From Agelas oroides (Eukaryota; Porifera; Demospongiae; Agelasida; Agelasidae): a stretch of 64,000 bases of DNA. Numbering within the stretch: position 1 is the stretch's first letter; the number at the start of each line of letters is the position of its first letter. Positions 12,571 to 35,548 of this stretch are shown here, piece after piece. The notes beneath the pieces were generated by a model. The model saw only the letters and a list, made by a program, of their open reading frames with translations. It made no database searches and had not been told where the DNA came from. The stretch lies in assembly GCA_949130485.1 (NCBI GenBank), contig OX422185.1, positions 4,813,928 through 4,877,927 on the forward strand. The letters run 5' to 3'. Made by a program: the position numbers and the translations under genes.

Positions 12571-12625
12571 ATCACTTCAGCACACACCCCTCTGGGATCC
12601 AGGTTGAGAGCGTGAGCTTCATCTT
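12571..12625 (-). promoter_or_regulatory. SECIS element of selenoprotein copy A
   Basis: Minus strand, about 30 bases after the stop. The core reads AUGA, then AGCUCACGCUC, an unpaired UCAA, a mini-stem CUGG-AUC-CCAG, then GGGUGUGUGCU and GAA. The main helix has 10 of 11 possible pairs. Relative to copy B it holds wobble changes (A-U to G-U, U-A to U-G) and a lengthened apical stem, so the shape is kept while the sequence drifts. AUGA/GA quartet, about 13-base spacing and apical AA are the hallmarks of a form-2 eukaryotic SECIS. Confidence 0.85.
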
Positions 12626-12649
12626 ATGCCTCTTGAAAGAAATTGCTAA

Positions 12650-13600
12650 CTAACTACACTGTCCTTGCAATACTTTTAACAATGTTTCAATATCGGGTCT
12701 GTCAAACTGGTTTTCGCTGAGGTACGCATACAGCAGCTTGCCAGTTGAATCCACAATGAAGTCACCTCCCATTACAGCCCAATCACTGCCTGAGTAAGGT
12801 TCCTCACTTTTCCAAGTACCAGCTAGGATCTCATCTGCATAACGTTTGAATGTCTTGATGCAGAAGGAATCCTTGAAAAATCTACGCAACCCAACCTGTC
12901 GGTAGAACACCCTATCTTGGTCGAGAAGGTGTAAGAAATGGTAGCCATGTTTCTGCAACCATTCCATACCACTCTCTTGTGTTCCACAAGCCACAGCAAC
13001 CACCTGACACCCCAGCTGCTTGAATTCCTTTTCTTTTGCCACTATGCCCTCCAGATGTATGTTACATGGACCTCAGAAGTAAAACTTGAGGAAAACAAAG
13101 TGTGTGAATTTGGACTGCTTCCAGACATTCTCAAGGCTAACCACCTCTCCTGAGCAGCAATTGGTGATAGCCAAATTGGTTGGCAGCTGGTCATCCACTT
13201 TGGTGACATTCTGGATGGCAAGTTGATCTTCTGCTTTCTGTATCTCCACATCAACGTTATCATAAAATGCCTGCAGACTCTCCTCTAAACTCAAAAGCTC
13301 TTCCACACTATCCCTCACTTCTTTATCATGGTAGCATCCCCTCCACATCTCCTCAAGTTCAGCTCGTGTCTTTACACCAACCGCCTTTAAGCAGTCCACG
13401 TAGATGAAAAATGGTTGTAGTGCAAACAGGCCCACATCCCACTCAACCTTCAGAAAGTCTTCCAAGCAGTTAACATTGGATCTAATCCCCGGCAAGCTCT
13501 CTCTTCCATCTTCAACCATCTTGGTTAGCTCCTCATTTAGCTTTCGCAATGCAGGCAGTAAAACTGCCTTGATTGCACCTCCGTCTTTGGCAGTAGTCAT
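12650..13600 (-). CDS. Selenoprotein copy A: peroxiredoxin-like protein with Sec-Gly-Pro-Cys
   Basis: A 316-residue frame interrupted once, by TGA at 13073-13075 (codon 176), directly followed by GGT CCA TGT (Gly-Pro-Cys). Residues 1-140 are a predicted all-helical region of unknown family. From about residue 138 (DQLPTNLA) a thioredoxin-like domain begins. Strand WKQSKFTHFVFLKFYF runs into the UGA, followed by CNIHLEGIVAK, LLDQDRVFYRQVGLRRF and GGDFIVDSTGKLLYA, a pattern seen in AhpC/TSA-like PRXL2/SelU/SelL proteins. The start at 13600 (MTTAKDGG) aligns with the Met of the other copies. The half after the UGA has no nearby ATG. Recoding is supported by the SECIS at 12571-12625. It faces away from copy B with 2.3 kb between. 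Likely an intracellular thiol-selenol oxidoreductase or peroxidase; the substrate is unknown. Confidence 0.85.
13073..13075 (-). other. UGA codon read as selenocysteine (copy A)
   Basis: In-frame TGA between KFYF and Gly-Pro-Cys. It occupies the redox-active position of a thioredoxin-like fold, at the same place as in copies B, D and E. Confidence 0.83.
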
Positions 13601-14044
13601 CAAGGCTAGCACTGATAAGCAACAATGATTGTAAGCTACCTTCAATAGCAGGTGCATGTACTGTTCATGCAAAACCACAATGTAGTAAATTTGCGGCAGC
13701 CTACACCACAACACATATGAAAGAAGCCAGTGCTGTGGTTTACCATGAGTACTCACCTACTGACACATGATTTATGGATTCAGGAAGCTATAGTAGATCC
13801 CTTTTACACAATGCCATAGCCTAGTTCCCGGTGCTGTGGAGAGGGGGAAAAGAGCTCCTGGTGTGTACTGCATGCTCGCGCATGCGTCAAATTCTCATGG
13901 TAACCTGCATACTACTCCGCTACACTAAAATCATGACCATTTTAGTCTACCTGCAGAAAGGCACACTGCAGGACTATATATATGCTCCTTCTGAGACACA
14001 TTCGGAAGGATTTGAAGTCAGAACTTTGTATCATTTTGCTGAAA

Positions 14045-14122
14045 ATGGAGGCCACTTCAGTGTTGACTCAACCAGTATGCTGCTGTACACATGCACACCC
14101 TGCAAGAACAATTTGACAGACC
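14045..14122 (+). pseudogene. Relic of a further copy of the selenoprotein family (C-terminal part)
   Basis: The nucleotides resemble the 3' coding part of the neighbouring genes. 'aatggaggccacttcag', 'tgttgactcaacc' and 'caagaacaattt.acagacc' parallel GGDFIVDSTGKLLYAHHSKNQYDRP. In one frame it still reads NGGHFSVDSTSMLLYT. No Sec region or SECIS was found around it. It lies inside a 111-codon open frame (13831-14166) that is otherwise unlike the family. Confidence 0.55.
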
Positions 14123-14159
14123 ATCATTCAAGCCCATTTCACCAAGGTAAGCTACAGAG

Positions 14160-15930
14160 AAGTTAATCAGGAAGGACACTTTTCCTGAGATTCACGAGGT
14201 CTTTTTTTTTGTCTTCATGACTTCTCGTCAAGTCATATGTTTCCTTCATGGAAGTGAGATATTGAGTCACCTTAGCAGCGTACGTACTTGACTAGATAGA
14301 AAAGTACTTGATCTAACCTTGTTCCAGACCCTCAGTCAGACCTAGTCTCATTCCCAGGTCCTGCCCAAACATCAGGAAGGAACCTTTTCCTGATATTCAC
14401 GGTTAGCCTCTTCCTCTAGGGAAGAGGCTAAACAAGACCCCCCTAGGAGAGGAGCAGGGTGTGGTCAAAATGACCATAAGTACTTAATTTACTGAAGCCC
14501 AGCAAGCAACTTCAAAGGCTTATCTTTAGTGAAAATCAATATCAATGCTAGCCTGTGGTTAGTCTATCAAGCTAGACCATCTCTCGCCCTCCAGAAAAGT
14601 GAGAGACCAGAAAGGTGAGACGGAAATGGAAACAAAAATGCACCAATCACTGTTTTGTTCTGTCTGATTGGTTCATTGACTAATTACGTTGTACCTACTG
14701 GGCTTCCTGACCGCAAGTACTTAGCTTTACTCATCACACCTTTATAGACCTAGCTACTTATCACATTTCCAATTTACTGAAGCCCAGAAAGCAACTTCAA
14801 AGGCTTATCTTTAGTGAAAATCAATATCAATGCTAGCCTGTGGTGTGATTATGTACTACATTCACCAGACCTCCTCTCTCACGTGTGTACCATGAATGAG
14901 ACTATATATTTCCTCATACATGACTTTGAACTACCAAACAGAAAACAGGAAATGTAAAAATTGGAAACGGAATGGAAACAAAAATGCACCAATCACTGGT
15001 GCAGTGTTTTCTTTACCAACTCATGAGTAGTGTGCTTTGTATTCTACTTAGGTTGTATGACTGGCTTTATGAGTCATGTGTGATTACTCATTCAATGTGA
15101 TTAACTAGCGCTCATGTGACAAGCAATGTTGCAATCTAGTCTGGTTCACATGCATGAGAGAGGGTCTGGGTACGAAACTATAGTTGCAATCTGACCATGA
15201 AAATTTTCACTTGGTCTTGGAACAAAGCCAGCATTCCTCCTCGTTCCTAGACCTTCCCCCACTTCCAGTTTGCAGTATGTGAAGCAAATGATGGCTTCAT
15301 ACCCAGGCCCTATTTTACCTGGGTAGAATAGCCTCGATCCCAACCATTATCACCCCAATATTTTGCCAAAACAGAAATGCTGGGGGCGGCGAAGGCTTGG
15401 GAATGAGCAAAGCAAGTGATCAAAAACTGGAGGCAGGGAGAGCTCTGTGGTGCCTAGCTAGGAACAATATGTGAATCTTGCTAGGACTACAACAGCCAAG
15501 AAGTTGCATTTCCATTTCTATTTCCAGTTCTGTTTCCAGTTTCCAGTTCATATCTGTTTCATTTACATTTCCTGCTTTTATATATTACTATAATTGTTAG
15601 TACCCGGTATTTCTCTATTATAGCGTTATTCAAGTAGCACAAGCTATATAAAGCTAGTAGTGACTTTGGTTTGCATTTTGCAAGGTCAACGCTAACAGCA
15701 GTAGCTAATTAGATTTTTGGAGGCGGTTGTGTTGACTGCATGCCCACAAATGTAATATATAATTCACTTCGAGCATACTTTGCACGCTCAAACTTAATTG
15801 ATGTGAGGGACGTTTTATCGCTCGAGCTACATGAGCAACCCTAAAGGGCGCGCATGTGAAAGCGACCGGTGTGGCGATCGCGAAGAGCGAACCTAGCCTC
15901 GTGCCCGGTGAGCGTGTTGTTCCACTGGCC
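14160..15930. other. Repeat-rich spacer between copies A/relic and B
   Basis: No gene was recognised. Two direct copies of an approximately 80-bp segment (AAGCCCAGCAAGCAACTTCAAAGGC… and AAGCCCAGAAAGCAACTTC…) occur near 14493 and 14779. Several TAGTCTCATTCCCAGG-type ends lie here. A copy of the 18007-18917 element family covers about 14920-15575 (GGAAACGGAATGGAAACAAA and 'tttcatttacatttcctgctttt'). Confidence 0.5.
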
Positions 15931-16884
15931 ATGGCTACCATCAAGGTTGGCATAGCAGGCAAGACCGTATTACTGCCAGCGTTGCGTAAAATGAACCAGG
16001 AGCTAACCAAGAGGGTTGGCAATGGGCGGGAAAATTTTGAGGCGATGAAATTCGACCGCTTGGACGAGTTTCTGCGCGTCGACTGTAAAGTAGGTATATT
16101 TACTGTGTTACCAGTGTTCAGCTATGTCCAATGCTTGAAGGCAGTAGGAGCAAGCACACGGGCTGAACTTGAGGAAATGTGGAAGGAGTGCTACCATGAC
16201 AAAGAAGTGAGGAAATGTGTGGAAGAATTTTTTGGCTTAGAAGAGAGTCTGCAGGAGCTGTTTGATGACATTGACGTTGAGGTACAGAAAGCAGAGGATC
16301 AACTTGCCATCCAAAATGTTACTAAAGTGGGTGACCAGCTGCCAGCTGATCTAGCTCTCACCAATTGTCGCTCAGGAGAAGTTGTCCACCTTGAGAATAT
16401 CTGGAAGCAGTCCAAGTTCACACTCTTTGATTCCCTCAAATTCTACTTCTGAGGTCCATGTAACAAGCATATGGAGGACGTTGAGGCAAGGAATAGGGAA
16501 TTCAAGCAGCTGGGGTGTCAGGTGGTTGTTGTGTCTTGTGGAATGCAAGAGAGTGGTCTGAGATGGATGCAAAAGAATAACTGCCCTTTCCTACACCTCC
16601 TTGACCCAGACAGGATATTCTACCGACAGGTTGGATTGCGAAGGTTTCTTAAGAATACCGTCTGTGTCAAGACCTATGTACGGTATGCAGATGAGTGTGT
16701 AGCAGGCACTTGGCCACCAAAGGGTGTATCGTTTTCGGATTGTCCAGACACCGATTTTGCTGTAATGGGAGGCGACTTCATTGTCGACTCAACTGGCAAG
16801 CTGTTGTATGCTCACCACTCCAAGAATCAGTACGACAGACCTGACATTGAAACATTGCTGAAAATGATGCAAGAACATGTTTAG
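15931..16884 (+). CDS. Selenoprotein copy B: peroxiredoxin-like protein with Sec-Gly-Pro-Cys
   Basis: A 317-residue frame with a single TGA at 16450-16452 (codon 174) followed by GGT CCA TGT. It starts in a good context (GCCATGGCT); an upstream in-frame ATG at 15856 is not conserved in the family. Domain order is as in copy A: helical N-terminal region (KTVLLPALRKMNQELTKRVG; LEEMWKECYHDKEVRK), then VGDQLPADLALTNC, strand FTLFDSLKFYF, Sec174, Cys177, LLDPDRIFYRQVGLRRF and AVMGGDFIVDSTGKLLYAHH. The stop TAG is followed 41 bases later by a well-formed SECIS. Intronless. A weaker reading is two separate proteins, but the second half aligns to the family only if joined through the UGA. Confidence 0.88.
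16450..16452 (+). other. UGA codon read as selenocysteine (copy B)
   Basis: In-frame TGA between KFYF and GPC, the U-x-x-C position of the thioredoxin-like active site. Confidence 0.86.
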
Positions 16885-16919
16885 AACTAACCACCTTGTT
16901 ACTTGCACTTAGCAAGAGG

Positions 16920-16976
16920 CATGATATGAAGCTCACACTCTCAATCTGGTATCAGAGGAGTGTGTGCTGAAGTAAT
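16920..16976 (+). promoter_or_regulatory. SECIS element of copy B
   Basis: Core AUGA at 16926-16929, helix AGCUCACACUC pairing with GAGUGUGUGCU (10 of 11 pairs, one U-U mismatch), unpaired AA at 16943-16944, apical mini-stem UCUG-GUAU-CAGA, and UGAA at 16968-16971. This is a textbook form-2 SECIS arrangement. It binds SECIS-binding protein 2 and directs selenocysteine insertion at the UGA upstream (family knowledge). Confidence 0.9.
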
Positions 16977-17049
16977 ATGGTGCTATACTTGCTGAAGTAA
17001 TATGGTGCTGTATACTTGCTGAGTGTAATCAATAAATGTTCGTACATAT

Positions 17050-17546
17050 CATAGGCGTAGGAAGCAAATTTGAAGTGTAGAGGCCATGTTGTACCGCGGT
17101 AAGCGCGGCGGCGAATTTTTTCAAACTGTGCACCTTTAGACTGCAAAATCAAGCCTTTTTTCAAGGGTATAAGCTTTCAGACCTTCCCAACCGTCCAGTA
17201 AAATATTTGAAAAACAGTAAGATTATACGTACTGACTTCGTCGTTGTTCCCAGGAGACCGCCCAGCTTTCGTCGCTTGTAGTAGTCTCTGTGAAAATGTG
17301 CACTAGCCTCGTACCAAGCCATCTCACTACCAAGATTTTGATTGGTTTGTAGTGTACTTGAACGGAAATGTATGCATGTATGAGACTGGTACAACGAAGA
17401 GGTTGCTGAGCTTAGGCTCGTTCCCAGGGAACGAGGCTAGCTTTAGCTATTATAGTAACTTTAGCAGGTTATGAATATTAATTTGCGGCCCAAAAAGTGT
17501 AGCGGCCAAAGCCGCTACGGCCGCTACGGTTCCTACGCCACTGTAT
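17050..17546. mobile_element. 497-bp TIR element, TSD CATAT, inserted in the 3' flank of copy B
   Basis: Starts CATAGGCGTAGGAAGC and ends GGTTCCTACGCCACTGTAT; CATAT flanks both sides (17045-17049 and 17547-17551). The duplicate flank of copy C near 24030 lacks it, so it is a real insertion. A second copy in opposite orientation (50072-50602) disrupts a gene. A TAGCCTCG/GTTCCCAGG-type foldback is nested inside (about 17300-17445). Confidence 0.85.
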
Positions 17547-18006
17547 CATATACTGTTTGTGGTGATTACAAAACAAGATCCTTGTGGGTGTATAACTAGC
17601 GGTGTTAGTGGGGATGAGGCTAATAATGGTGCTGGAAAAGTTGCAGTCATATAACCTGCTAATAAGGTAGATGAACAAATATCATGCACATTATATGACT
17701 ATAGCTACAGGTCTCAGTATCAGGGCATCAAGAGTGCCCTGCAGAGAAAAGGGCTTTTCAATCTCCTTAGACAGAAATACATAATGGTGCAGCGTTTGCA
17801 TGGTATATGTGTAAGGTTCAGGCTAATAAGCACCCATAGAACCTAAAAATATTGTGAGTACATAATCAGATTGCAACAAATAAATCCTATTTACAACACA
17901 CTCAAGAATGTAATATTATCTAACAAGTCAAAATATCTGGTCATGCTTCACATGCTACATCTGTGCATGTAACAGGCAGTGTCTCAAACTAAAGGGCTTC
18001 TAAGTC

Positions 18007-20374: not shown

Positions 20375-20558
20375 AACGAGAATGTGTAAATGCAATTTAG
20401 CTACTTCCTGCGACAAATGTGGAAAGCGCCCGGCGGAATAATTGCACTGTAAGTTGCTATTATCATACCACGGTTCGCTGACTAACTTAAAGCCGCTCTG
20501 GCACCACAAACTTGATATGCTGACGTGATAATTCAATCTACTTCACGCTTACCCGAAG

Positions 20559-21966: not shown

Positions 21967-22120
21967 CCCGAAGCGACCGGCGGGGTAAAAAGCGAACCCT
22001 GGTTCGAGAGTAGCTAGTGAGTGCGAGGTTATCACGCGCACCCTCGCCAACATAAATTCCAACAAGCGGAAGCAGGGCGAACACTGGGACGAGACTAGAA
22101 AGCGTGCCGTTCGTCTGGCC

Positions 22121-23887
22121 ATGGCTGCCACACAAGATGGTGGTGCGGCCAAGACCGTATTACTGTCTGCGTTGCGGAAACTGAATCAGGAGCTAAGCAA
22201 GAAAGTTGGCGATGGACGGAAAAACTTTGAGGCGATGAAATTTGATCGCTTGAATGAGTTTTTGGTTTTCGACTGTGAAGAGGGTATACATAATGTGGTA
22301 CCGGTGTAAGCGCGATATGGGGACCCCCGTGATATGGGGACCCCCGTCCCCATATCCCTAGTGACATGGGGACCCCCCCCCAGCCCCATTTCGCTAGTGA
22401 TATAGGGACCCCCTCAGCGTTTTGGGGACCCCGGAAGACACGGACCTACCTGTTCGTAAACATCCGACGCTGGACCTTGACGATCATTGATCAGAAGGGT
22501 ACGCCATCAGTGATAATTATAAAACGAGAAGCAGAGCACAACAACAAGAAGTTGTTAGTATGGCGAAGGAAGGCGAAAAAGACGTGAAAGTTGAGGAAGA
22601 TGCGGCAAAAGTGAAATATACGTTCAGCGAAATTTATGACTACGTTGTCCGTAAGACATATACCCATCTCATGCTGATAAACTCTACAAGCATGGGCTAA
22701 GGAAGCGTAGCAAATTCTTACCAGCGGACGGAGGGCGTTTATACTACATTGCCGGAAAAGGGAGTGAGAAACCTCGCTTGGTGCCAAGTGCGGAGGAGAG
22801 GAGAAAAATCGGCAGCATACTAATATTCTTTAATAATAATATTGTTGTTCTTTACTTGTACATACTATTGCATAAGCATATTTTTACTCTTGCATATATA
22901 CGACTTGTTAATTTGTTCTTATATGTCTTTTCCAATTGCGTATAGAACACAAACCTTAGGGGTCCCTAAATCACTGAAGGATCCCCATATCACCAGAGTT
23001 CTGGGGACCCCCGGTCCCCATATCCCTAGTGATATGGGGCCCCCCCGTCCCCATATCACTAGGGATATGGGGACCGGGGTCCCCAAATTGGGGGGTCCCC
23101 ATTTCACGCAGACACCGGTGTTTAGCTACGTCCAGTGCCTGAAAGCCGCTGGTGCGAAGACGCGGGTTGAACTTGAGGAGATGTGGAAGGGGTGCTACCA
23201 TGATGAAGAGGTGAGGGAGTGTGTGGAGGAGTTTTTGAGTTTAGAGGAGAGTATTCAGGAGTTGTTTGACGACATTGATGTGGAGGTGCAGAAAGCAGAG
23301 GATCAACTTGCCATCCAGAATGTCACCAAGGTGGGTGATCAGCTGCCAGCCGATCTGTCTCTCACCGAGTGCCGCTCGGAGAGGTGGTCCAACTTGAGGA
23401 TGTTTGGAAGCAGTCCAAGTTCACACTCTTTGTACCTCTCAAGTTTTATTTTTGACCTCCATGAAACAAGCACCTGGAGGGTATAGTGGCAAGGAGGAAG
23501 GACTTTGAGCAACTGGAGTGTCAGGTGGTTGTTGTATATTGTGGAACACGAAAGAATGGTCTAACATGGCTGCAGAAAAGTAGCAGCCCTTTCCTGCACC
23601 TCCTTGACCCAGACAGAGTGTTCTACCGACAGGTTGGGCTGCGAAGGTTTCTCAAGGATACTGCCTGTGTTAAGACATTTGTACGGTGTGCAGATGAGTT
23701 TGTTGCAGGCACTTGGCCACCAAAGGGTTTGTCTGTATCCGACTATCCAGGCACCGATATTGCTGTAATGGGAGGTGACTTTATGGTCGACTCAACTGGC
23801 AAGCTGTTGTATGCTCACCACTCCAAGAATCAATACGACAGACCGAAGATTGAAACATTGCTGAAAATGTTGCAAGAACATGTTTAG
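22121..23887 (+). pseudogene. Selenoprotein copy C, disrupted
   Basis: The first 62 codons (22121-22307) match copy D. An 806-bp element then splits the gene, and family sequence resumes at 23122 (FSYVQCLKAAGAKTRVELEE). Further lesions: one base is lost near 23378 (CGCTCGGAGAGG against CGCTCAGGAGAGG in E), a frameshift. At the active site, TGA (23453-23455) is followed by CCT CCA TGA, so the partner cysteine codon TGT is now TGA (23462-23464). The second half (from 23486, GTG codon) remains open to TAG at 23887. The degraded SECIS at 23922-23978 agrees with loss of constraint. Confidence 0.88.
22308..23113. mobile_element. 806-bp element inside copy C, TSD ACCGGTGT, with integrase-like fragment
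   Basis: Flanked by ACCGGTGT (22300-22307 and 23114-23121). Both ends are built of short inverted units (GATATGGGGACCCCC; CCCCATATCCCTAGTGATAT). Inside, around 22560-22820, the plus strand can be read as MAKEGEKDVKVEEDAAKVKY and, after a frameshift, KHGLRKRSKFLPADGGRLYY followed by RLVPSAEERRKIGS. That second part resembles the start of an integrase zinc-binding (H2C2) region of retroelements or Ginger/KRBA2-like genes. The 8-base TSD suggests a hAT-type or similar transposase; the class is uncertain. Confidence 0.65.
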
Positions 23888-23921: not shown

Positions 23922-23978
23922 GCATGATATGAAGCTCACACTCTCAATCTGGTATCAGAGGAATGTGTGCTGAAGTAA
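23922..23978 (+). promoter_or_regulatory. Degenerate SECIS of pseudogene copy C
   Basis: AUGA (23929-23932), AA and UGAA (23971-23974) are kept. The right arm is GAAUGUGUGCU, which breaks a C-G pair present in B and D. This fits decay after the coding part was lost. Confidence 0.75.
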
Positions 23979-24775
23979 TATGGTGCTACTTGCTGAATGG
24001 TGCTACTTGCTATCAATAAATGTTTGTACATATACTTTTTGTGGTGATTACAAAACAAGATCCTTGTGGGTGTATAACTAGCGGTGTTAGTGGGGATGAG
24101 GCTAATAAGGCTAATAATGGTGCTGGAAAAGTTGCATTCACATAACCTGCTAATAAGGTAGATGAATGAGTGTCTATGTTCATCCACATTATATGACTAT
24201 AGCTATACATGTCTCAGTATCAGGGTATCAAGAGTGCCCTGCAGAGAAAAGGGCTTTTCAATCTCCTTAGACAGAAATACATAATGGTGCATTTGCATGG
24301 TATATGTGTAAGGTTCAGGATAATAAGCACCCATAGAACCTAAAAATATTGTGAGTACATAATCAGATTGCAACAAATAAATCCTATTTACAACACACTA
24401 AGAATGTAATATTATCTAACAAGTCAAAATATCCGGTCATACTTCTCATGCTACATCTGTGCATGTAACAAGCAGTGTCTCAAACTAAAGGGCTTCTAAG
24501 TCTGAGAGTTGGTTTGATGCATGTAACAAGCAGTGTCTCAAACTAAAGGGCTTCTACGTCTGAGAGTTGGTTTGATGCTGATGATGCATAGACTTTACTG
24601 TTTATATGGAAAAATGCAAGTAATAGAAATGCATTAAGAATTGAATTCTTGATTGCATGGATTTAATGCATGATTCAAATGTGACATGTAACAATGTATG
24701 CCTGCATGTGTAGTTACAACCATGATGCACCACATAATTAACTATAGGGATCAAAGCGTTGCATTCTAGCATATC

Positions 24776-26485: not shown

Positions 26486-26983
26486 TTGCAACCCCCTCTC
26501 AAGGATCCTCAACATATACCGGTACCCCCATCCACCCCAGTGAAAGAAAAACTTCCTACAGCTCGCTCTCCCCTCAAACATCCTAGGGTAGTCACCATGT
26601 GGGGAACACGTAGATCGACCACTGAACTTGAGGTATCCCAAGCCATTAGACAAATAGGCTGCAACAATCTTCAAATTGAAAGACGGACCTCCAAAAGCAC
26701 TCCACATAGGCGAGGAACTTGGAGATTTGTGATTCTTGGGGAAGAACAAGACATTGCCTACCTAGAAGATAACTGGAAGAAGATGCCAAAATGGTGGAAG
26801 CTACAATGTCCTGCAAGCCCAAAGTCCAGTCCTGACAACTACCAGCAAGGTCTCCCTTTTCCGGAACATCTCCCCCGGAGGCCACCTATTCAAACAGGTA
26901 TGATCCAATGGTGTCCCCCTGTCCAGATAAGACCACACCCTTTTACCTACAGTCCCCTACCACATTTGAATTACCAACGCTAA
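26486..26983 (+). CDS. LINE ORF1, C-terminal part
   Basis: An open frame of about 165 codons, possibly continuing to the 5' edge of the element. It is rich in Pro and basic residues, with no visible zinc knuckle. Readable segments include VTMWGTRRSTTELEVSQAIR and WRFVILGEEQDIAYLEDNWK. It overlaps ORF2 in another frame. The start is lost by 5' truncation, so protein function is uncertain; ORF1 products normally bind the element RNA. Confidence 0.5.
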   Translation: MQPPLKDPQHIPVPPSTPVKEKLPTARSPLKHPRVVTMWGTRRSTTELEVSQAIRQIGCNNLQIERRTSKSTPHRRGTWRFVILGEEQDIAYLEDNWKKMPKWWKLQCPASPKSSPDNYQQGLPFPEHLPRRPPIQTGMIQWCPPVQIRPHPFTYSPLPHLNYQR

Positions 26984-29900
26984 AACCTAGGTCTTTGGTC
27001 TCAGATTCGCACTGCCCATTAAAGCTTGGTTGCTGGAATACTAGGGGTTGGCCTTTAGACAGTCAATTTAGAAGTAGAGTAATACATTCTCTGGATCTAG
27101 ACTTAATAGGTATCTGTGAAACATTCTTACGAGAGAATAATGAAATACATCTAGAAGGCTATACTTGGTTAGGCAATAACCGTAAACAAATATCCAAAAG
27201 AGCAATTCGTGGCTCAGGGGGGGTGGGGCTTTTGGTGAAGGATACAGTCTTTCATAAGTTTACCGTAAGTGTCTTAGATAATAAATCAGAAGGTATTCTA
27301 TGGGCTCTACTACTAGACCAAGCCTCCCAACACTCTATCTCTCTATGTGTCTGCTATTTACCTCCCAGTAATTCATCAAGAGGTGACATCTCACTTGAGT
27401 TTTTCAGCAACCTAAGGCTACAAGTTTCAAAATACCAAGACACAGGTCTGATATGCATTTGTGGTGACTTCAATGCCCGCATAGGCTCTCTAGCGGATAT
27501 TGATCTAGAAGTAGTTGCTGACTCTGTACCAAAGAGAGTAACTCTAGACACAGCTCCCCCTAATACCCATGGTAAAGAACTCATTGAGTTTGTCAGAGAT
27601 GTAGGAATGGTTGTCCTCAATGGTAGAGGATCCAGTAACAATGATTCTTTTACATTCATTAGCACAAATGGTTCCTCAGTTGTTGACTACTGTCTCATCC
27701 CCATTGAACAATGGAACCTTATTGGGCCATTCTCAGTTGTATCACCTCTTGACGTTTCTCACAGATTCCACATCCCAGTTGATTGTAACCTCCCAGACCA
27801 CTCTATCCTCCTATGGTCCATTAAGTTATATTCTCAGGCCACCTTTAACCGATCTCAAAACCCATACTCCCCAAACCCAAAGTGCAAGTTTAAAATCCCA
27901 CAAAATTACATGCAGTCCGATCTAGCACTTAGCAGAATACAGGATATAATCGATAACACCACCCCCCTCTCTCTACAAACATGCTATAAAGACACTTGTG
28001 ACCTGATATTCTCTGAATTGATCCCTTCTAATCCCTCCAAGCATAAAAAGTGCAGCCACCCTTGGTGGAACCCTAGACTTAATCTCCTCAAACAAAGTTT
28101 ACGCCTTAAACAAAGAGCATGGTTAAAGCAAAAGGATAACTCCCAACTAAAACTGGCCTATCAATCTTCCCAGAAAACCTTCGACAAAGCGATAAAGAAA
28201 GCCAAGGCAGATCACAGAACACATAAACCAATTGAATTGCTCCATCAATGCAAGCACGACTCCAAAAGCTTCTGGAGAAATTTCAAACTAATAGGTATAC
28301 ACGCTGAAAGGAAAACAATCCCCATCCAAGTCATCAATGCTGAGGGTGAGGTGTTGTCTGAACCTAGTGCTTTGTTACAGGTTTGGAAAAGTTACTTTGA
28401 TTCTCTGTACAACCAAAGCCCCCTTTCTGTTCCCAGTACAATTTACAGCCTTCTTAGCTCAACACATATGCCTGCTAATTCATCCAACTGCCAGGAACTC
28501 AATCTCCCCATTTCAATTGATGAAGTAGAACTAGCTATTGCCAGACTCAACCTCGGTAAAGCTCCCGGGCTTGATAAGATTCAAGGTTCATACCTAAATC
28601 ACCCTGCCCTGACCCCTCTGTTACATAGATTATTCTCAGTTTGCTTTGACTCAGCCCTAGTACCCTCAGATTGGTGCTCTGCACTAATCCACCCCATCTT
28701 GAAACCCAACACCACAGACCCTAGAAACCCCATTAACTACCGTGGTATTGCACTCCAGAGTGTTGTCCTGAAAGTCTTTTGCAAAGTTCTCAATGCTAGA
28801 CTCTCTGACTGGTCAGAGACAAACTGCGTTCTATCGGATGAACAAAATGGTTTTAGGCCCAACCGCTCATGTCTGGACCATCTTTTTGTAATCTGTAGTA
28901 TTATTAGCACTAGAAAATTGAACAAGTCACCAACATTTGTTGCCTTTGTAGACCTCAAAAAAGCTTTCGACAGTGTAGATAGAGACCTCCTATGGCACAG
29001 ATTAGGCCACTATGGAATTAGTGGGAAATTCCTAGATCTTATAAAATGCCTGTACAGAGATACTGAGTACTGTGTTAGAGTCAATGATACCGTCACTGAA
29101 CCATTCCCTGTAACATCTGGAGTTAAACAAGGATGTCTGCTTTCCCCTACATTATTCAATCTCTTCATCAATGGTCTAATTGAAGAAATAAAGCAGCTTA
29201 ACTTAGGAGTAAAATGTGGTGAAATTCTCTTAGCTCTCCTGGTGTTTGCTGATGACATTGCTATAATGGCGGAAACAGAGGAAGATCTGCAGTGTATGCT
29301 TAGTATACTACACACCTGGTGTGAATCCTGGCGACTTCACATTAACACCAGCAAAACAAAAATTGTCCATTTTAGACATAAATCCCAGCCTAGGACCTCG
29401 TTCAATTTTAAATGTGGCCCCTCAGAATTAGAAGTTGTGCCTTCATATAAATACCTTGGTGTTTGGCTTGATGAACACTTAGATTACCAAAACTGTGTTA
29501 ATGCACTTAGTGAATCTGCCAGAAAAGCTTTGGGCCTTCTTATAGCTAAATCAAAACAATTTGGTAATTTTCCCTTTGAAGCATTCAGCTCACTTTATGA
29601 CTCACTAGTAATACCTAGAATGGACTATGGGGCTGGTGTCTGGGGTTACAGAACCTTCCCCAAGTTACAAACCATTCAGAACAAGGCAATTAGACATATT
29701 TTGGGTGTGGGTAAAAACTGCCCAGTAGATCTACTAGAAGGTGACTCAGGATGGATGCCAGTCTGGTGTAGACACCAGTTTGAGATGCTCAAACTCTGGT
29801 TCCGTCTTGCTACTATGGATAATAGTCATCTTACTAAAAAGATTTTTAAATGGTCACTAGAACTAGCCAATAAGGGCAAACCTACCTGGTGTTTTCATGC

Positions 29901-30486
29901 AAATAAATTGCTCACTCAGATCAACCTAGGACACTTAAATCCAAATAATGTAACTAGCTTGTCTCCTAAGGAATTTCAAACCATAGTCATCACTAAATTA
30001 ACTGATAAAGCAAACCACAAATGGAGAATGCGAATCTGGGACCATAACACCTACTGTACAGACTCAGGGGGTAGGCTACATAACTATAGAGTTATAAAAC
30101 AACAACCTAGGCCAGAGTGCTACATTAGTGGTATTCTGTGCAGGGGTCACCGGTGGGTCATGGCTGCCCTCCGGGGGGGTTGTCTCCCACTTCACATTGA
30201 GACAGGCCGATATAGGACACCAAAAACACCATACCACCTCCGGACCTGCAGATTGTGTTCATCAGACACTGTTGAAACTGAATTTCATTTTGTTATGTTG
30301 TGTCCAGCTTTAGATCATTTACGTTCTACCTTTTTCAGTTGCCTATCCGACTTAGATAACTCTTTTACCTCCCTTACCCTTATTGATAAATTTAAGTACA
30401 TCCTTAGCGCAAATAATCATTGTAGAATAACTGGGAAACATTTGTATAACCTGTATAAAACTAGAATCCAGCCTTTAAATCTGTAA
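26908..30486 (+). CDS. LINE ORF2: AP-endonuclease / reverse transcriptase
   Basis: 1192 codons, uninterrupted. The N-terminal apurinic-type endonuclease starts at LGCWNTRGWPLD, with the ICETF, CGDFNARIG and LPDHSILLW motifs. The central reverse transcriptase has NYRGIALQSVVLKVFCKVLN, QNGFRPNRSCLDHL, FVDLKKAFDSVDRDLLW, GVKQGCLLSPTLFNLFING and the catalytic FADD near residue 780. Near residue 1113 it has a Cys-x2-Cys-x9-His-x4-Cys finger. The protein copies element RNA at nicked DNA. The open frame suggests recent insertion, but loss of the 5' end argues against autonomous mobility. Confidence 0.93.
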   Translation: MVSPCPDKTTPFYLQSPTTFELPTLKPRSLVSDSHCPLKLGCWNTRGWPLDSQFRSRVIHSLDLDLIGICETFLRENNEIHLEGYTWLGNNRKQISKRAIRGSGGVGLLVKDTVFHKFTVSVLDNKSEGILWALLLDQASQHSISLCVCYLPPSNSSRGDISLEFFSNLRLQVSKYQDTGLICICGDFNARIGSLADIDLEVVADSVPKRVTLDTAPPNTHGKELIEFVRDVGMVVLNGRGSSNNDSFTFISTNGSSVVDYCLIPIEQWNLIGPFSVVSPLDVSHRFHIPVDCNLPDHSILLWSIKLYSQATFNRSQNPYSPNPKCKFKIPQNYMQSDLALSRIQDIIDNTTPLSLQTCYKDTCDLIFSELIPSNPSKHKKCSHPWWNPRLNLLKQSLRLKQRAWLKQKDNSQLKLAYQSSQKTFDKAIKKAKADHRTHKPIELLHQCKHDSKSFWRNFKLIGIHAERKTIPIQVINAEGEVLSEPSALLQVWKSYFDSLYNQSPLSVPSTIYSLLSSTHMPANSSNCQELNLPISIDEVELAIARLNLGKAPGLDKIQGSYLNHPALTPLLHRLFSVCFDSALVPSDWCSALIHPILKPNTTDPRNPINYRGIALQSVVLKVFCKVLNARLSDWSETNCVLSDEQNGFRPNRSCLDHLFVICSIISTRKLNKSPTFVAFVDLKKAFDSVDRDLLWHRLGHYGISGKFLDLIKCLYRDTEYCVRVNDTVTEPFPVTSGVKQGCLLSPTLFNLFINGLIEEIKQLNLGVKCGEILLALLVFADDIAIMAETEEDLQCMLSILHTWCESWRLHINTSKTKIVHFRHKSQPRTSFNFKCGPSELEVVPSYKYLGVWLDEHLDYQNCVNALSESARKALGLLIAKSKQFGNFPFEAFSSLYDSLVIPRMDYGAGVWGYRTFPKLQTIQNKAIRHILGVGKNCPVDLLEGDSGWMPVWCRHQFEMLKLWFRLATMDNSHLTKKIFKWSLELANKGKPTWCFHANKLLTQINLGHLNPNNVTSLSPKEFQTIVITKLTDKANHKWRMRIWDHNTYCTDSGGRLHNYRVIKQQPRPECYISGILCRGHRWVMAALRGGCLPLHIETGRYRTPKTPYHLRTCRLCSSDTVETEFHFVMLCPALDHLRSTFFSCLSDLDNSFTSLTLIDKFKYILSANNHCRITGKHLYNLYKTRIQPLNL

Positions 30487-30652
30487 TATCTGTATACTTA
30501 ACCATTATTTTGTACCCGTTTGTAGTGACTCATAGGCCTAATCAGGCCGGGCATCTCGCGTGTCACTCTAATAAAATATTTCATTCATTCATTCATATCA
30601 TACCACGGTTCGCTGACTAAGCCGCTCTGGCACCACAAGCTTGATATGCTGA

Positions 30653-30790
30653 TTTCCATTAATAGCAGAACGTTAGCATCCGTAAGCTATACAGTGATTT
30701 ATATGGTTAGGGTGGGGTTAGGGTTGGGTTAGGGCTGGTATAAATACCATATAGCATACGGATGCTAATGTTCTGTCGTTAACGGCTTGT
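30653..30790. mobile_element. 138-bp MITE with TSD GATATGCTGA and telomere-like core
   Basis: Arms AGCAGAACGTTAGCATCCGT and ACGGATGCTAATGTTCTGTC are near-inverse. The core contains GGTTAGGGT / TTAGGGTTGGGTTAGGG. The 10-base duplication GATATGCTGA flanks it (30643-30652, 30791-30800) and is single in the flank of unit C (about 20513-20522). Confidence 0.78.
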
Positions 30791-30982
30791 GATATGCTGA
30801 CGTGATAATTCAATCTACTTCACGCTTACCCGAAGCGACCGGCGGGGTAAAGAGCGAACCCTGGTTCGAGAGTAGCTAGTGAGTGCGAGGTTATCACGCG
30901 CACCCTCGCCAACATAATTTCCAACAAGCGGAAGCAGGGTAAACACTGGGACGAGACTAGAAAGCGTGCCGTTCGTCTGACC

Positions 30983-31945
30983 ATGGCTGCCACACAAGAT
31001 GGTGGTGCGGCTAAGACCGTATTACTGTCTGCGTTGCGGAAACTGAACCAGGAGCTAAGCAAGAAAGTTAGCGATGGACGGAAAAACTTTGAGGCGATGA
31101 AATTTGATCGCTTGAATGAGATTTTGAAATTCGACTGTGAAGTGGGTATATATAATGTGTCACCGTTGTTTAGCTACGTCCAGTGCCTGAAAGCCGCTGG
31201 TGCGAAGACGCGGGTTGAACTTGAGGAGATGTGGAAGGGGTGCTACCATGATGAAGAGGTGAGGGAGTGTGTGGAGGAGTTTTTGAGTTTAGAGGAGAGT
31301 ATTCAGGAGTTGTTTGACGACATTGATGTGGAGGTGCAGAAAGCAGAGGATCAACTTGCCATCCAGAATGTCACCAAGGTGGGTGATCAGCTGCCAGCCG
31401 ATCTGTCTCTCACCGAGTGCCACTCAGGAGAGGTGGTCCAACTTGAGGATGTTTGGAAGCAGTCCAAGTTCACACTCTTTGTACTTCTCAAGTTTTATTT
31501 TTGACCTCCATGTAACAAGCACCTGGAGGGTATAGTGGCAAGGAAGAAGGACTTTGAGCAACTGGAGTGTCAGGTGGTTGTTGTATATTGTGGAACACGA
31601 AAGAATGGTTTAACATGGATGCAGAAAAGTAGCTGCCCTTTTCTGCACCTCCTTGACCCAGACAGAGTGTTCTACCGACAGGTTGGGCTGCGAAGGTTTC
31701 TCAAGGATACTGCCTGTGTTAAGACCTATGTACGGTATGCAGATGAGTTTGTAGCAGGCACTTGGCCACCAAAGGGTTTGTCTGTATCTAGTATATATGA
31801 CTATCCAGGCACCGATATTGCTGTAATGGGAGGTGACTTCATTGTTGACTCAACTGGCAAGCTGTTGCATGCTCACCACTCCAAGAATCAGTACGACAGA
31901 CCTGACATTGAAGCTTTGCTGAAACTGTTATCAGAACATGTTTAG
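30983..31945 (+). CDS. Selenoprotein copy D: peroxiredoxin-like protein with Sec-Pro-Pro-Cys
   Basis: 320 residues with one in-frame TGA at 31502-31504 (codon 174), followed by CCT CCA TGT (Cys177). The N-terminal 135 residues are helical and charged (KTVLLSALRKLNQELSKKV; ELEEMWKGCYHDEEVRECVE) and match no family I know. The Trx-like part has VGDQLPADLSL, LEDVWKQSKFTLFVLLKFYF, Sec, CNKHLEGIVARKKDFEQL, LLDPDRVFYRQVGLRRF (225-239) and MGGDFIVDSTGKLL. Four extra residues (SSIY) near 268 are absent from copies C and E. Codon 185 is GTG, not ATG, so a separate downstream protein starting there is unlikely. The upstream 150 bases match those of copy C (GAAGCGACCGGCGGGGTAAA), probably including the promoter. 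The SECIS lies at 31991-32048. Confidence 0.88.
31502..31504 (+). other. UGA codon read as selenocysteine (copy D)
   Basis: In-frame TGA between KFYF and PPC. Confidence 0.86.
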
Positions 31946-31990
31946 AATTAACATCCTAGTTAGTTACAGTTCGTTAATTGTTTGCAAGAG

Positions 31991-32048
31991 GCACAATATG
32001 ATGCTCACACTCTCAATCTGGTGTCAGAGGAGTGTGTGCTGAAGTGAC
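31991..32048 (+). promoter_or_regulatory. SECIS element of copy D
   Basis: AUGA at 31998-32001, left arm UGCUCACACUC, unpaired UCAA, mini-stem UCUG-GUGU-CAGA, right arm GAGUGUGUGCU, GAA at 32041-32043. The main helix has nine consecutive or near-consecutive pairs. It begins about 50 bases after the TAG stop. Confidence 0.88.
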
Positions 32049-32883
32049 ACATTGCTACTTGTGGTATACGTATACTTAATTGCGTTTGCTTATTTTGCTG
32101 TTTTTATGTTTTATTATAACTCCTGTATCACATTGTAATAAAATAATTTGGATCTTTTGAGGCAAAATTAGAGGAAAGTGAAAAATGTTCATATACCTAT
32201 CTTTAGCAAATGTAAGTACCTTCATGCTAAGGTATATAGCTAATTTGGGCACTGTAAAATCCAGTGTCAAATCTTTGGCCCTGTATAGTCTCCATGGATA
32301 CTTCAATGATAACTGTATCCAGCCGTGGTGTCAAACTTCAGTAAGTCCTCTCACGCAGGCTTGGAAAGACAGGCTAAAACGTTGGGCATACACATGTTTA
32401 TATATTAAAACCACTGCCATGAGTCCAAGACCATGCGGTTTGCATAAATACAATTTTGGTATATAAACTGACTTGCAAACAATAGTGTTATCTTGGCTAG
32501 AATGGCATGCATGTGTTAAAAATGTAACATATCAAATTAAGAGGTCAAGACATCTGGTCATCTAATGTCACATGTGCATGCTGTGTCTCCAGCTAAAGAT
32601 GTTTTTCTGAACGGTCCTTTGAGGCCTATTACAAACAGCATTATAAGCTTGTGTTCACATGTTGCCAGCAGTCACCATGGGACCAATTTGATTCTATAGA
32701 CTACACACACACAAATCCACTAGCTCTGTATGGTTATTAGCTTAGAGTGACCTATACAGAGAATGAGGTGGCATTCTAGAGAATTCATAAGCTCTGTGCT
32801 TTGGCATACTGTAGACAACAGACACCCCAAAATCTATGAAAGTCACTTATCAAACTTCAGTTATCCGAATCTTCAGTAATCCA

Positions 32884-32912
32884 ACCCCCCCCCCCCCCCC
32901 CCCCCCCCCCAA
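32884..32912. repeat. Poly-C tract
   Basis: About 28 consecutive C followed by A6 and T5. The length may be inexact because of sequencing. Confidence 0.85.
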
Positions 32913-34125
32913 AAAATTTTTTGTTCATTGCTGTTGTTTATTCACTGTATTATGTGGAAATGAATCTGCTTTGAACAGCTATTATACTGTTTCAAACATG
33001 CAGTTCAGGTATCTGAACACCCTCCAGTCCCAACATGTTCGGATAAGTGACTAAAGTCCTACTGTATCTAAGTGCCTATTTAGAATACTACTTAAATTCA
33101 GGATATTGCCCACTTCTGTTTTGCAGTAATATCTGTCCTGTATGATTAGCTACCTTTATGAGGCAAACTAGTTATCCTTAGTGTTGAAATGATACAGGTA
33201 GGACCAGTAACATTACTGCATGGGAAGAACCACTGAAGTACATGCCAGACAATGCAGTCAGTCACCAAATGTAAGGGTCAGTTGCACTTGTATTTAGCAT
33301 GTAGATTTTATATATATAGCTCACTGTAAAAACATTTAGGTTACTTCAACCATATTTCAGTTATCTCAGTTGCATGTGTGTGGTGTACACATCATGAAGT
33401 TCAAGGAATGCCTCTTCTGAATACCTTGAAATCAAAATGTTGAGAACAACTTCTTCAACTTAATTAAACCCATGCAGTCTTCTTTTCAGAACATCTATTA
33501 ATTATCATTTCTGGAAAAGGTTTGGTTGCATACTTATGGTAGAAATGTAGCTTCTGAAAGAAACTAATTTAACTAAAGAAGAAGCTCTTGGATTCCTGAG
33601 ACTTTTGGTAATGATACGGTATTGATACCACTCTGGTGCAACTGAGATAACTTACAAATATGGTTATACATGAAGTAAAATCCTTGGTGTCATGCATAGT
33701 GAAGCCGTTCGAAAGTCATGAGTCCAAGACGAATTGCCCCTATGTGCACAAACTTTCAATAGCCAGTAGTTTTTATGTATCTCGGGTAGATAAATTTAAT
33801 AGTTGTAGCACATCCGAATTGAAATTTGCTGTTTTTCCGTTGCGAGCAGTGTGAACACTCAATGGAATACGGAAAAATCCGCTGTAGCTACGTGTATACG
33901 TGTGTGCATGCACGTACCAGTCCTCGTGAACAAACCGAGCTAGACAGCCGCTCCGCTAACGGTCTATTAAATCCGTTCACCGTAAGTTTTCTGTTAGACC
34001 TTCCTGCGCGGAACGAGAGCTCTTCAAGTGGGCCACCCTCGGGCAGTACAAATCGGCTTTCCATGAACTCTTCCAAAATCCTTAGTGACAGTTTTGGTAG
34101 TACCTGGTTGCAGAATTTTGTACGT

Positions 34126-34193
<68 letters not shown>

Positions 34194-34262
34194 CAGATAG
34201 ATAGATAGATACATACATACATAGATACATAGATACATAGATAGATAGATGGATAGATAGAT
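34126..34262. repeat. (GATA)n microsatellite
   Basis: About 34 tetranucleotide units with a few GACA/CATA variants. On the minus strand it follows AATAAAATCTTATC, so it may be the expanded tail of a retroposon whose 3' part lies at 34263-34370. Confidence 0.95.
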
Positions 34263-34485
34263 AAGATTTTATTTTGGTAGAGCAGAAATGCTGTATCTAC
34301 AATACACGTAGGTTCATGCTGTAACCGAAGAAGCCTCACAATTATCCAGAAGCCGACATCTTGCTGCAAATTAGCGCTAGGTCATTGCGTCATTTCCGCT
34401 CTACAATTAAAATCTGCTGACCGTTTAGCAGAACGGCTGGAGAGACCCTGGGACATAGACAAGAGAGGGTGCTGTTCGTCTAGCC

Positions 34486-35445
34486 ATGGCTACCACAATT
34501 GATGGTGGTGCGGTTAATTATAAGGCAGTGTTACTCTCTGCGTTGCGAAAGCTAAACCAGGAATTAACCAAGAAAGTTGGCGATGGAAGAGAAAACTTCG
34601 AGGTGATGAAATTTGACCGCTTGGATGAGTTTTTGAACAGTGACTGTAAAGTGAGTATAGTCTATGTGACACCGGTGTTTAGCTACGTCCAGTGCATGAA
34701 GGCCGTTGGTGTGAAGACGCGGGCTGAACTTGAGGAGATGTGGAAGGGGTGCTACCATGATGAAGAGGTGAGGGAGTGCGTGGAAGAGCTTTTGAGTTTA
34801 GAGGAGAGTCTGGAGGAGCTTTTTGGTGACATTGATGTGGAGTTGCAAAAAGCAGAGGATCAACTTGCCATCCAGAATGTCACCAAGGTGGGTGATCAGC
34901 TGCCAGCTGATCTGTCTCTCACCGAGTGCCGCTCAGGAGAGGTGGTCCAACTTGAGGATGTTTGGAAGCAGTCCAAGTTCACACTCTTTGATGCTTTCAA
35001 ATTTTACTCTTGAGGTGAATGTAACAAGCACCTGGAGGGTATAGTGGCAAGGAAGAAGGAATTTGAGCAACTAGGGTGTCAGGTGGTTGTCGTATGTTGT
35101 GGAACACGAAAGAATGGTCTAACATGGATGCAGAAAAGTAGCTGCCCTTTTCTGCACCTCCTTGACCCAGACAGAGTGTTCTACCGACAGGTTGGGCTGC
35201 GAAGGTTTCTCAAGGATACTGCCTGTGTTAAGACCTTCGTACGGTACGCAGATGAGTTTGTAGCAGGTACATGGCCACCAAAGGGTTTGTCTCCATCCGA
35301 CTATCCAGGCACCGATCTTGCCGTAATGGGAGGTGACTTTATTGTTGACTCAACTGGCAAGCTATTGTATGCTCACCACTCCAAAAATCAATACGACAGA
35401 CCGAACATTGAAGCATTGCTGAAACTGTTGCAAGGATATAAATAA
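34486..35445 (+). CDS. Selenoprotein copy E: peroxiredoxin-like protein with Sec-Gly-Glu-Cys
   Basis: 319 residues with one in-frame TGA at 35011-35013 (codon 176), then GGT GAA TGT. It starts in GCCATGGCT. It is very close to copy D (ELEEMWKGCYHDEEVRECVE, AEDQLAIQNVTKVGDQLPAD, MQKSSCPFLHLLDPDRVFYR), but the residues around Sec differ (KFYS-U-GEC instead of KFYF-U-PPC). The charged Glu in the x-x positions could change the redox potential. Codon 187 (35044) is GTG, so no independent downstream start exists there. The stop is TAA at 35443-35445 and a SECIS-like hairpin follows at 35501-35548. Intronless. Confidence 0.85.
35011..35013 (+). other. UGA codon read as selenocysteine (copy E)
   Basis: In-frame TGA between KFYS and GEC. 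Confidence 0.83.
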
Positions 35446-35500
35446 AAATACTTTGGTCAATTTACTTAACCTACTATTTTTTTAGTTGCATTCCAAGTGG

Positions 35501-35548
35501 CATAATATGAAGCTCACACTCTCAATCTGATTTCAAGAGGGGTGTATG
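35501..35548 (+). promoter_or_regulatory. SECIS element of copy E (weaker)
   Basis: AUGA at 35507-35510, AGCUCACACUC, UCAA, apical UCUGAUUUCAAGAG, right arm GGGUGUAUGCU and GAA. Nine of 11 helix positions pair (one U-U, one C-A mismatch), and the apical mini-stem is poor. The quartet and AA are intact, so it is probably functional but perhaps less efficient. Confidence 0.72.

Follow-up and report, generated by a model that had tools for sequence, protein, structure and literature searches.

Selenocysteine (Sec) has been described in several peroxiredoxin-like proteins, and three of these systems come close to the locus examined here. SelL is a peroxiredoxin-like protein of aquatic organisms in which two Sec are placed two residues apart and one SECIS element is present, according to the accessible portions of the articles describing it (PMC2397514, PMC3316567, PMC2398784). 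In sponges, Jiang et al. (2012) described Aq.AphC.like, a Sec protein with a thioredoxin/AhpC-like domain and SECIS elements, which the accessible portion of their article reports from sponges only (PMC3473315). The same portion gives three AphC-like genes for Amphimedon, two of them in tandem, with 2 or 5 coding exons, and SECIS elements in Aq.AphC.like a, b and c that begin with GUGA, a trait tied to the organism and not to the family (PMC3473315). Finally, prokaryotic Prx-like thiol:disulfide oxidoreductases carry UxxC or UxxU within an AhpC-TSA domain, as far as excerpts of the relevant publications go (PMC13188914, PMC9312934).

The present analysis concerns a stretch of 64,000 nucleotides from the genome of the sponge Agelas oroides (contig OX422185.1), referred to as the window, which holds a family of genes interrupted by TGA at one and the same place.

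Results and discussion

A local cluster of intronless genes

The window contains a local cluster of intronless genes that are open when TGA is read through, with four intact copies (A, B, D and E) of 316-320 aa and a broken one (C). An earlier note had recognised four copies, all of which are real, but its list was incomplete, as copy C lies in the window and more copies lie outside it. The features, with putative Sec codons and candidate SECIS cores, are as follows; Rfam values refer to 150-nt 3' regions.

12577..12622 (-): SECIS core of copy A, beginning at nt 28 past the stop codon; SECIS_1 17.3 bits, E 0.5, best of 2 families listed
12650..13600 (-): copy A, read-through CDS of 316 aa; Sec codon 13073-13075, motif UGPC, stop TAG
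15931..16884 (+): copy B, read-through CDS of 317 aa; Sec codon 16450-16452, motif UGPC, stop TAG
16926..16970 (+): SECIS core of copy B, beginning at nt 42 past the stop; SECIS_1 27.0 bits, E 0.0011, best of 4 listed
22121..23887 (+): copy C, broken; Sec codon 23454-23456
23929..23973 (+): SECIS core following broken copy C, not picked up by the loosened scanner (see below)
30983..31945 (+): copy D, read-through CDS of 320 aa; Sec codon 31502-31504, motif UPPC, stop TAG
31998..32042 (+): SECIS core of copy D, beginning at nt 53 past the stop; SECIS_1 22.8 bits, E 0.016, sole match up to E 10
34486..35445 (+): copy E, read-through CDS of 319 aa; Sec codon 35011-35013, motif UGEC, stop TAA
35507..35552 (+): SECIS core of copy E, beginning at nt 62 past the stop, likewise not picked up by the loosened scanner; SECIS_1 sole match, 18.1 bits, E 0.32

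Copy C is damaged by an insert of about 0.8 kb containing a TAA (roughly 22310-23110) and by a frame change upstream of its Sec codon; its second motif position is also TGA. Outside the window, copy F adjoins it, copy G lies on a different contig and has a third in-frame TGA at codon 93 in its N-half, and H is a relative at 45%. These three share the motif Sec-x-x-Sec, whereas A, B, D and E have Sec-x-x-Cys. Copies F, A, B, D and E and the broken C all fall within about 41 kb, and the copies have duplicated flanks in common; local segmental duplication accounts for at least part of the growth in gene number. Between copies C and D sits a LINE-like reverse transcriptase ORF, and to the left of the window there is an orphan SECIS relic which has lost the AA of its apical loop.

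A conserved in-frame TGA with constraint on both sides

When TGA is translated as U, each of the four intact copies contains exactly one (codon 176 in A, counted from its ATG, 174 in B and D, and 176 in E), followed by two residues and Cys, just as the earlier note had described. On the scale of the genome, the TGA occupies the same alignment column in 7/7 copies that are open apart from TGA (A, B, D, E, F, G and H), a tally which includes G with its extra TGA. The first start-like codon downstream of the TGA is GTG in A, D and E, as had also been noticed before, and ATG in B. Two general explanations for the TGA were set aside. A recoded-TGA genome was rejected, as the reverse transcriptase ORF has 0 TGA and 26 TGG in 1,193 codons, and removal of the TGA by splicing was judged unlikely, as the C9 gene, whose pieces lie in different frames and are read as exons, carries a TGA at the corresponding position within coding sequence.

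Values of dN/dS were 0.12-0.39 upstream of the TGA (21 pairs) and 0.20-0.37 downstream of it (17 of the 21 pairs, those with a defined value), which points to purifying selection on the downstream half like that on the upstream half. A downstream half devoid of conservation, which the earlier note had set against its own reading, is not what was found, the ratio being below 0.4 on both sides wherever defined.

The protein database carries relatives of the family as half-ORFs, which fits the earlier note's suggestion that such genes may escape annotation where gene callers halt at UGA. Among 25 matches to copy E, 20 end at the residue right before the TGA position, as do 17 of the 21 that remain when the four encoded in the window are left out; these counts go by where the proteins end, and both protein searches covered proteins of 0.55-1.75 times the query length. 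Given the shared column in 7/7 copies, the constraint on both halves and the 20/25 matches ending just before the TGA, a chance origin of the shared TGA appears very unlikely. One full-length relative, P0141, has Trp at both motif positions in our own alignment and an unsure position in the tree; it shows that the wider family does not have Sec or Cys throughout. One scan of viral contigs found no relative.

Were the TGA an ordinary stop, the genes would encode a short helical protein of about 175 aa, the remainder being untranslated or a separate ORF. Gene callers do end at the TGA, and in B, D and E, though not in A, the ATG of the first half has GCC or ACC before it and G after it. Against this stand the downstream half, about as constrained as the upstream one and in frame in 7/7 open-frame copies, the GTG found in A, D and E at the first start-like codon of that half, and one confident predicted fold which runs across the TGA; an ordinary stop would furthermore leave the hairpins described below without a role, and we regard it as exceedingly improbable.

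SECIS-like hairpins past the stop codons

A SECIS-like hairpin begins 28-62 nt past the stop codon in each of A, B, D and E, and an AATAAA follows at nt 147 past the stop in copy B and at nt 192 in copy D. Rfam SECIS_1 was the best family in five of the six 150-nt 3' regions tested (A, B, D, E and F) and was not listed for the sixth, H; all its scores in these searches were below the gathering score of 35. It surfaced in the 150-nt searches only, where filters are laxer: a whole-window search at gathering scores listed nothing, and SECIS_1 was absent from a 7.5-kb search, with E up to 10, spanning the elements of D and E. A first SECIS scanner, allowing no unpaired base beside the core, returned zero matches in the window with a background of 0.4 per window. 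Once loosened, it gave three matches across the window, one shortly 3' of each of A, B and D, and missed E and C; the fair yardstick for these is a background of 1.0 per window, since the loosening followed sight of the copies.

Across nine aligned elements the core bases are invariant, and those of the cluster begin with AUGA. On nine elements, 93.2% of cells pair, compared with 85.1% when shuffled and 37-64% when slid, and five pairs have changes on both sides versus 1.4 in shuffles, figures to be read in the knowledge that the structure counted was drawn from these same sequences and that kinship among sequences can beat shuffles without structure. Of two search models, R1 was trained on the very elements it then searched for; R2, a held-out model, finds H again at E 0.0018, near an antisense background match at 0.0041, and misses the C9 gene. 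Taken by position relative to the stop codons, the hairpins are predicted to place a SECIS element in the 3' UTR of the cluster genes.

The cluster could also be viewed as a set of decaying retrocopies or pseudogenes, considering that copy C is broken, that the N-half of G contains a third in-frame TGA, that the relic left of the window lacks its apical-loop AA, and that intronless copies occur together with a LINE-like reverse transcriptase ORF between C and D. Decay is nevertheless difficult to reconcile with four copies that are each open but for a single TGA and show dN/dS well below 1, with invariant SECIS core bases in nine elements, or with close relatives in other records that end at the same place, and it is judged highly improbable.

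Protein family and predicted fold

The read-through protein of copy E, modelled by AlphaFold2 with Cys in place of Sec, is predicted to form a single confident, peroxiredoxin-like fold spanning the TGA site (mean pLDDT 92.7), in agreement with the PRXL2/AhpC-TSA-like fold that the earlier note had proposed. The Foldseek list for this model includes BCP/PrxQ and human PGFS (PRXL2B), at a target TM of about 0.8. Pfam AhpC-TSA_2 scores above its cut-off at the genome locus of copy A. A separate exon elsewhere in the genome, read as SelU-like, is matched by the same Pfam family.

The NCBIfam profile SelL_rel_redox ("SelL-related redox protein", NF040769) was the best family in 7/7 proteins tested, with E values of 1.5e-23 to 9.6e-27 for A, B, D and E and 2.8e-33 for H; its curated cut-off of 120 bits was not reached, scores being 82-94 for A, B, D, E, F and G and 115 for H. 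Among curated families the nearest is thereby a SelL-related one, below its cut-off; human PGFS (PRXL2B) is matched at 7.8e-4 by sequence profile. That the genes belong to SelU (PRXL2) and not to a SelL-related line would agree with this profile match, with the presence of PGFS among the best folds and with Pfam AhpC-TSA_2 matching both the cluster genes and the SelU-like exon. It is opposed by the first rank of SelL_rel_redox in 7/7 proteins, which is not decisive because NCBIfam is built for prokaryotes and may lack a SelU model, and by Sec-x-x-Sec, a SelL trait, in the paralogues; we consider membership of SelU unlikely.

Sec machinery and proposed mechanism

A tRNA-Sec with tca anticodon was found at two places in the genome, and SepSecS in six pieces on one contig, with the caveat that the search control also responds in Bacillus subtilis and that one of the six pieces contains stops. 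Judged from these two components, the genome appears to encode Sec machinery.

We conclude, with a probability of roughly 94%, that genes A, B, D and E look functional and encode selenoproteins, their UGA being read as Sec by means of their own 3' SECIS elements, and that they are SelL-related and akin to the sponge AphC-like genes. The locally amplified, intronless selenoprotein family envisaged by the earlier note gains support from SECIS covariation, dN/dS well below 1 on both sides, tRNA-Sec with SepSecS, and the fold model.

In the proposed mechanism, each 3' UTR would contain a SECIS hairpin that brings in the Sec machinery and so lets the UGA be decoded as selenocysteine. The product would combine an N-terminal helical domain of about 130 residues with a peroxiredoxin-like (AhpC-TSA_2) domain bearing the active site Sec-x-x-Cys. 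Its activity is likely that of a thiol/selenol-disulfide oxidoreductase or a peroxidase, most likely the former. As an oxidoreductase, it would alternate between the selenol-thiol when reduced and the selenenylsulfide when oxidised, the presumed substrate being peroxide or protein disulfides; in the sister paralogues, with Sec at the second position too, a diselenide would be possible.

A peroxidase whose second motif position is peroxidatic (Cys in A, B, D and E, Sec in F, G and H), with the first-position Sec as resolving residue, is a tentative alternative, which we consider less likely than not. Peroxiredoxins are fold neighbours of the protein, and a phmmer alignment with PRDX5 sets Cys179 of E on what we take to be the peroxidatic position, and Sec176 on what is presumably the Thr of TxxC. 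Searched by sequence profile, the PDB instead yields ResA as best match (E 1.7e-5), a thiol-disulfide reductase whose CxxC motif has its nucleophile in the first Cys.

A possible natural Sec/Cys series

Sec and Cys at the second motif position differ by one base (TGA versus TGT). One genome may hold a natural SelL-type series of paralogues, some of them adjacent, with a shared SECIS design and fold, in which Sec-x-x-Sec (diselenide) stands against Sec-x-x-Cys (selenenylsulfide); UxxU may be ancestral to the cluster and have given way to UxxC on the branch of A, B, D and E. In our estimation this reading as a whole is as likely as not. Broken copy C is closest to D, yet has TGA at its second position, which implies reversion, decay or more than one change and counts against a single change. 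If such a series with ancestral UxxU were true, the sponge AphC-like family would be an expansion of SelL and not a separate invention. Closely matched paralogues with one Sec/Cys difference offer a way to study what makes a second selenium persist or disappear.

Comparison with known systems

Like SelU/PRXL2, the cluster proteins have a peroxiredoxin-like fold and a redox pair two residues apart, with PGFS as a top structural match; their sequence similarity to SelU/PRXL2, including PRXL2B (prostamide/PGF synthase), is weak (7.8e-4 by profile). To our knowledge, no N-terminal domain of the kind found in the cluster proteins occurs in SelU/PRXL2. Both motif forms and the AhpC-TSA domain are shared with the prokaryotic Prx-like oxidoreductases, as these appear in the accessible excerpts; the cluster differs from them in being animal, and two scans of GTDB genome contigs, of limited reach, found no relative of its proteins. 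The resemblance to SelL, as the available portions of its descriptions present it, lies in the Sec-x-x-Sec of F, G and H, and the difference in the Sec-x-x-Cys of A, B, D and E and in bit scores under the SelL-related cut-off.

With the sponge AphC-like genes, insofar as the accessible portion of their description extends, the cluster shares Sec in a thioredoxin/AhpC-like domain, neighbouring copies and SECIS elements. Unlike the Amphimedon genes, those of the Agelas cluster have intronless coding sequences and form a larger local cluster, and their SECIS elements have AUGA where Aq.AphC.like has GUGA. By description, and not by sequence, we infer that the cluster genes fit Aq.AphC.like; a family published as sponge-specific would by this inference be linked to the SelL line, and a selenoprotein family is present as half-ORFs in the protein database searched. 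The cluster adds a larger case to a kind already known, and what is unusual about it is that paralogues differ at one Sec/Cys position.

Copies and reading frames

Translated with TGA as U, copies A, B, D and E each yield an unbroken protein (316, 317, 320 and 319 aa, respectively) with one TGA apiece, at codon 174-176, followed by x-x-Cys, which upholds the four frames of the earlier note. A search of the organism's own genome (259 Mb, 141 contigs) with protein E returned 12 matches, distributed as follows.

Loci matching protein E in the Agelas oroides genome
A, B, D and E: in the window; copies with a single in-frame TGA
C: in the window; broken copy, matched in three pieces
F: region L005, directly left of the window; further copy
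G: region L004, contig C1; further copy
H: regions L008/L015, contig C7; 45% relative
C9 gene: region L014, contig C9; relative in two pieces, which reads as an intron-bearing gene

Searching the genome with Pfam AhpC-TSA_2 gave 10 places from 13 scored candidates, namely the nine known loci and one on contig C8; as a control, the same search registered signal in 5 of 14 genomes and exceeded the cut-off in two. The C8 place looks like a SelU/PRXL2 exon, by our own reading rather than by a family match.

Probable translation across the TGA

A codon alignment of the seven otherwise open copies has TGA at the Sec column in all seven. That the two halves belong together by read-through, as previously claimed, is borne out by Nei-Gojobori dN/dS values of 0.12-0.39 upstream of the TGA (21 pairs) and 0.20-0.37 downstream (17 pairs, the other four, all involving H, being saturated). 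Compared at protein level only, 20 of 25 protein-database matches to E stop at the residue directly before the TGA position (17 of 21 once the four window-encoded proteins are set aside), and the remaining five diverge before that point. The C-terminal half, used as query, matched 67 proteins of 78-139 aa; both searches were limited to proteins 0.55-1.75 times the query length. Support for A, B, D and E decoding UGA as selenocysteine is as strong as sequence permits, and we place the probability of this reading at about 0.94.

SECIS elements

Downstream of A, B, D and E, starting 28, 42, 53 and 62 nt past the stop codon, respectively, lies a hairpin that combines ATGA with TGA on its 3' side and whose apical loop opens with an unpaired AA. 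Scanning the 64-kb window for this arrangement, on either strand, gave three matches, at copies A, B and D, against a background of 1.0 per window (first-order Markov, 40 runs, maximum 4). The scanner also picked out sequence 3' of copies F and G and of the C9 gene, the last being of GTGA type, and failed to detect the elements of E, C and H. Among Rfam families, tested on the 150 nt past the stop in A, B, D, E, F and H of the nine loci, SECIS_1 ranked first for A (17.3 bits, E-value 0.5), B (27.0, 0.0011), D (22.8, 0.016), E (18.1, 0.32) and F (28.9, 0.00034), none of them reaching the gathering score of 35; it was absent from the matches for H.

In an alignment of nine elements (A to H and C9), no sequence departs from T, G and A in the 5' core, from the AA or from CTGA in the 3' core. 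Standard pairing occupies 93.2% of cells over 13 named pairs, compared with 37-64% in slid versions, over which the counted structure has an advantage because it was drawn from the same nine sequences. The corresponding figure for shuffles is 85.1%, two-sided changes occur in 5 pairs against 1.4, and none of 500 shuffles reached any of five pairing measures, though kinship among the elements can by itself exceed shuffles. A model built on all nine elements recovers all nine, while one built on six (A, B, D, E, F and G) finds broken C at once, reaches H at an E-value of 0.0018, barely ahead of an antisense match at 0.0041, and misses the C9 element.

Left of the window lies an orphan element (L016:7570-7652, minus strand), beside which tblastn found no coding copy. 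It is read as a SECIS relic; in it GA replaces AA, as expected if AA is retained solely where used.

Selenocysteine machinery

Two places in the genome exceed the Rfam cut-off for tRNA-Sec, in a search whose control gave signal in 14 of 14 genomes and exceeded the cut-off in five. ARAGORN assigned both to tRNA-SeC with anticodon tca, and three weaker places to tRNA-Ser. SepSecS is represented by six pieces above cut-off on a single contig, one of them containing stops, with control signal in 3 of 14 genomes, including Bacillus subtilis.

Protein family and predicted fold

B, D and E match Pfam AhpC-TSA_2, AhpC-TSA and Redoxin above cut-off, and no Pfam family reaches cut-off in their N-terminal part. 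The AlphaFold2 model (mean pLDDT 92.7, pTM 0.87), computed with Cys for Sec from 68 rows (seven full-length copies and 61 of the 92 database proteins matched by E or by its C-terminal half), is helical over residues 12-127 and thioredoxin/peroxiredoxin-like from about 130. Foldseek matched it in the PDB to BCP, 1-Cys Prx, human prostamide/PGF synthase (9usa, target TM 0.81) and further peroxiredoxins; together with the AhpC-TSA_2 result, the PGF synthase match agrees with the PRXL2/AhpC-TSA-like fold originally proposed. In the PDB, the sequence profile matched seven ResA sequences, the best at 1.7e-5, and a single PGF synthase at 7.8e-4. Pairwise alignment with PRDX5 sets Sec176 opposite the Thr of TxxC and Cys179 opposite the peroxidatic position.

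SelL_rel_redox was the top NCBIfam family for A, B, D, E, F and G (82-94 bits) and for H (115 bits), all below the curated cut-off of 120. The family is quite likely SelL-related, probably the sponge AphC-like group. Its product would be a redox enzyme, mainly a reductase or mainly a peroxidase, whose active pair is a selenenylsulfide in A, B, D and E and a diselenide in F, G and H.

A full-length database relative, P0141 (325 aa), carries Trp-x-x-Trp where the redox pair is expected (aligned by eye) and is perhaps a non-catalytic paralogue.

Second motif position and growth of the cluster

The second motif position is TGT (Cys) in A, B, D and E, Cys in the C9 gene, and TGA (Sec) in F, G and H; broken C also has TGA. 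A core-domain tree of 43 rows (A, B, D, E, F, G, H, the C9 gene, P0141 and 34 database halves) puts F, G and two database rows on one fork (92/90) and A, B, D and E within a single 13-row fork (94/90), with H outside; neither fork earns the program's star, which 16 of 40 inner branches carry. The branches to C9 and P0141 are long, and the database halves start past the motif, so they do not show its second position. We favour the reading that Sec-x-x-Sec preceded Sec-x-x-Cys in the cluster. C, however, is closest to D (92.7% across 901 bases), and its TGA argues against a single clean change in that direction, unless the TGA is part of C's decay.

Two further TGAs were observed. In copy G (L004:1465-2409) codon 93 is also an in-frame TGA, the third of that copy; it lies away from the redox motif, has a SECIS downstream, and is either an additional Sec or a recent lesion. 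The frame of copy F ends in TGA, two codons and TAG (L005:2422-2433), and this TGA may either terminate translation or encode a third Sec.

Self-comparison of the window revealed flanks shared beyond the genes, at 17542-18006 and 24025-24502 (92%) and at 21967-22307 and 30829-31169 (95%). Local segmental duplication thus accounts for at least B, C and D, and to that extent the claimed local amplification is supported. Other records also seem to hold more than one member per contig: database relatives P0008, P0013, P0035, P0048 and P0122 all give 2,095,570 bases as the length of their longest contig, the equal figure suggesting a single contig.

Other features of the window
26908-30486, plus strand: 1,192-aa ORF between C and D with Exo_endo_phos and RVT_1 matches, a LINE-like non-LTR retrotransposon
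2629-4260: minisatellite, unit about 35 bases, about 47 copies

Comparison with described selenoproteins

At the level of titles and abstract openings, the literature searched gave no title describing the present cluster, and a later description is possible. SelL, as described in PMC2397514, forms a diselenide and is confined to fish, invertebrates and marine bacteria. In Jiang et al. 2012 (PMC3473315), SelL is counted apart from AphC-like in Amphimedon, which argues against simply equating the two. The same paper presents "Aq.AphC.like" as a family whose members contain Sec and a thioredoxin-like domain, with three genes in Amphimedon, two of them tandem, and members in Oscarella and Suberites, and as absent from the other eukaryotes its authors searched; the term AphC-like also occurs in PMC3828610. 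Compared by description alone, the present cluster agrees with the sponge AphC-like family, except in exon number and the AUGA core, and would belong to it.
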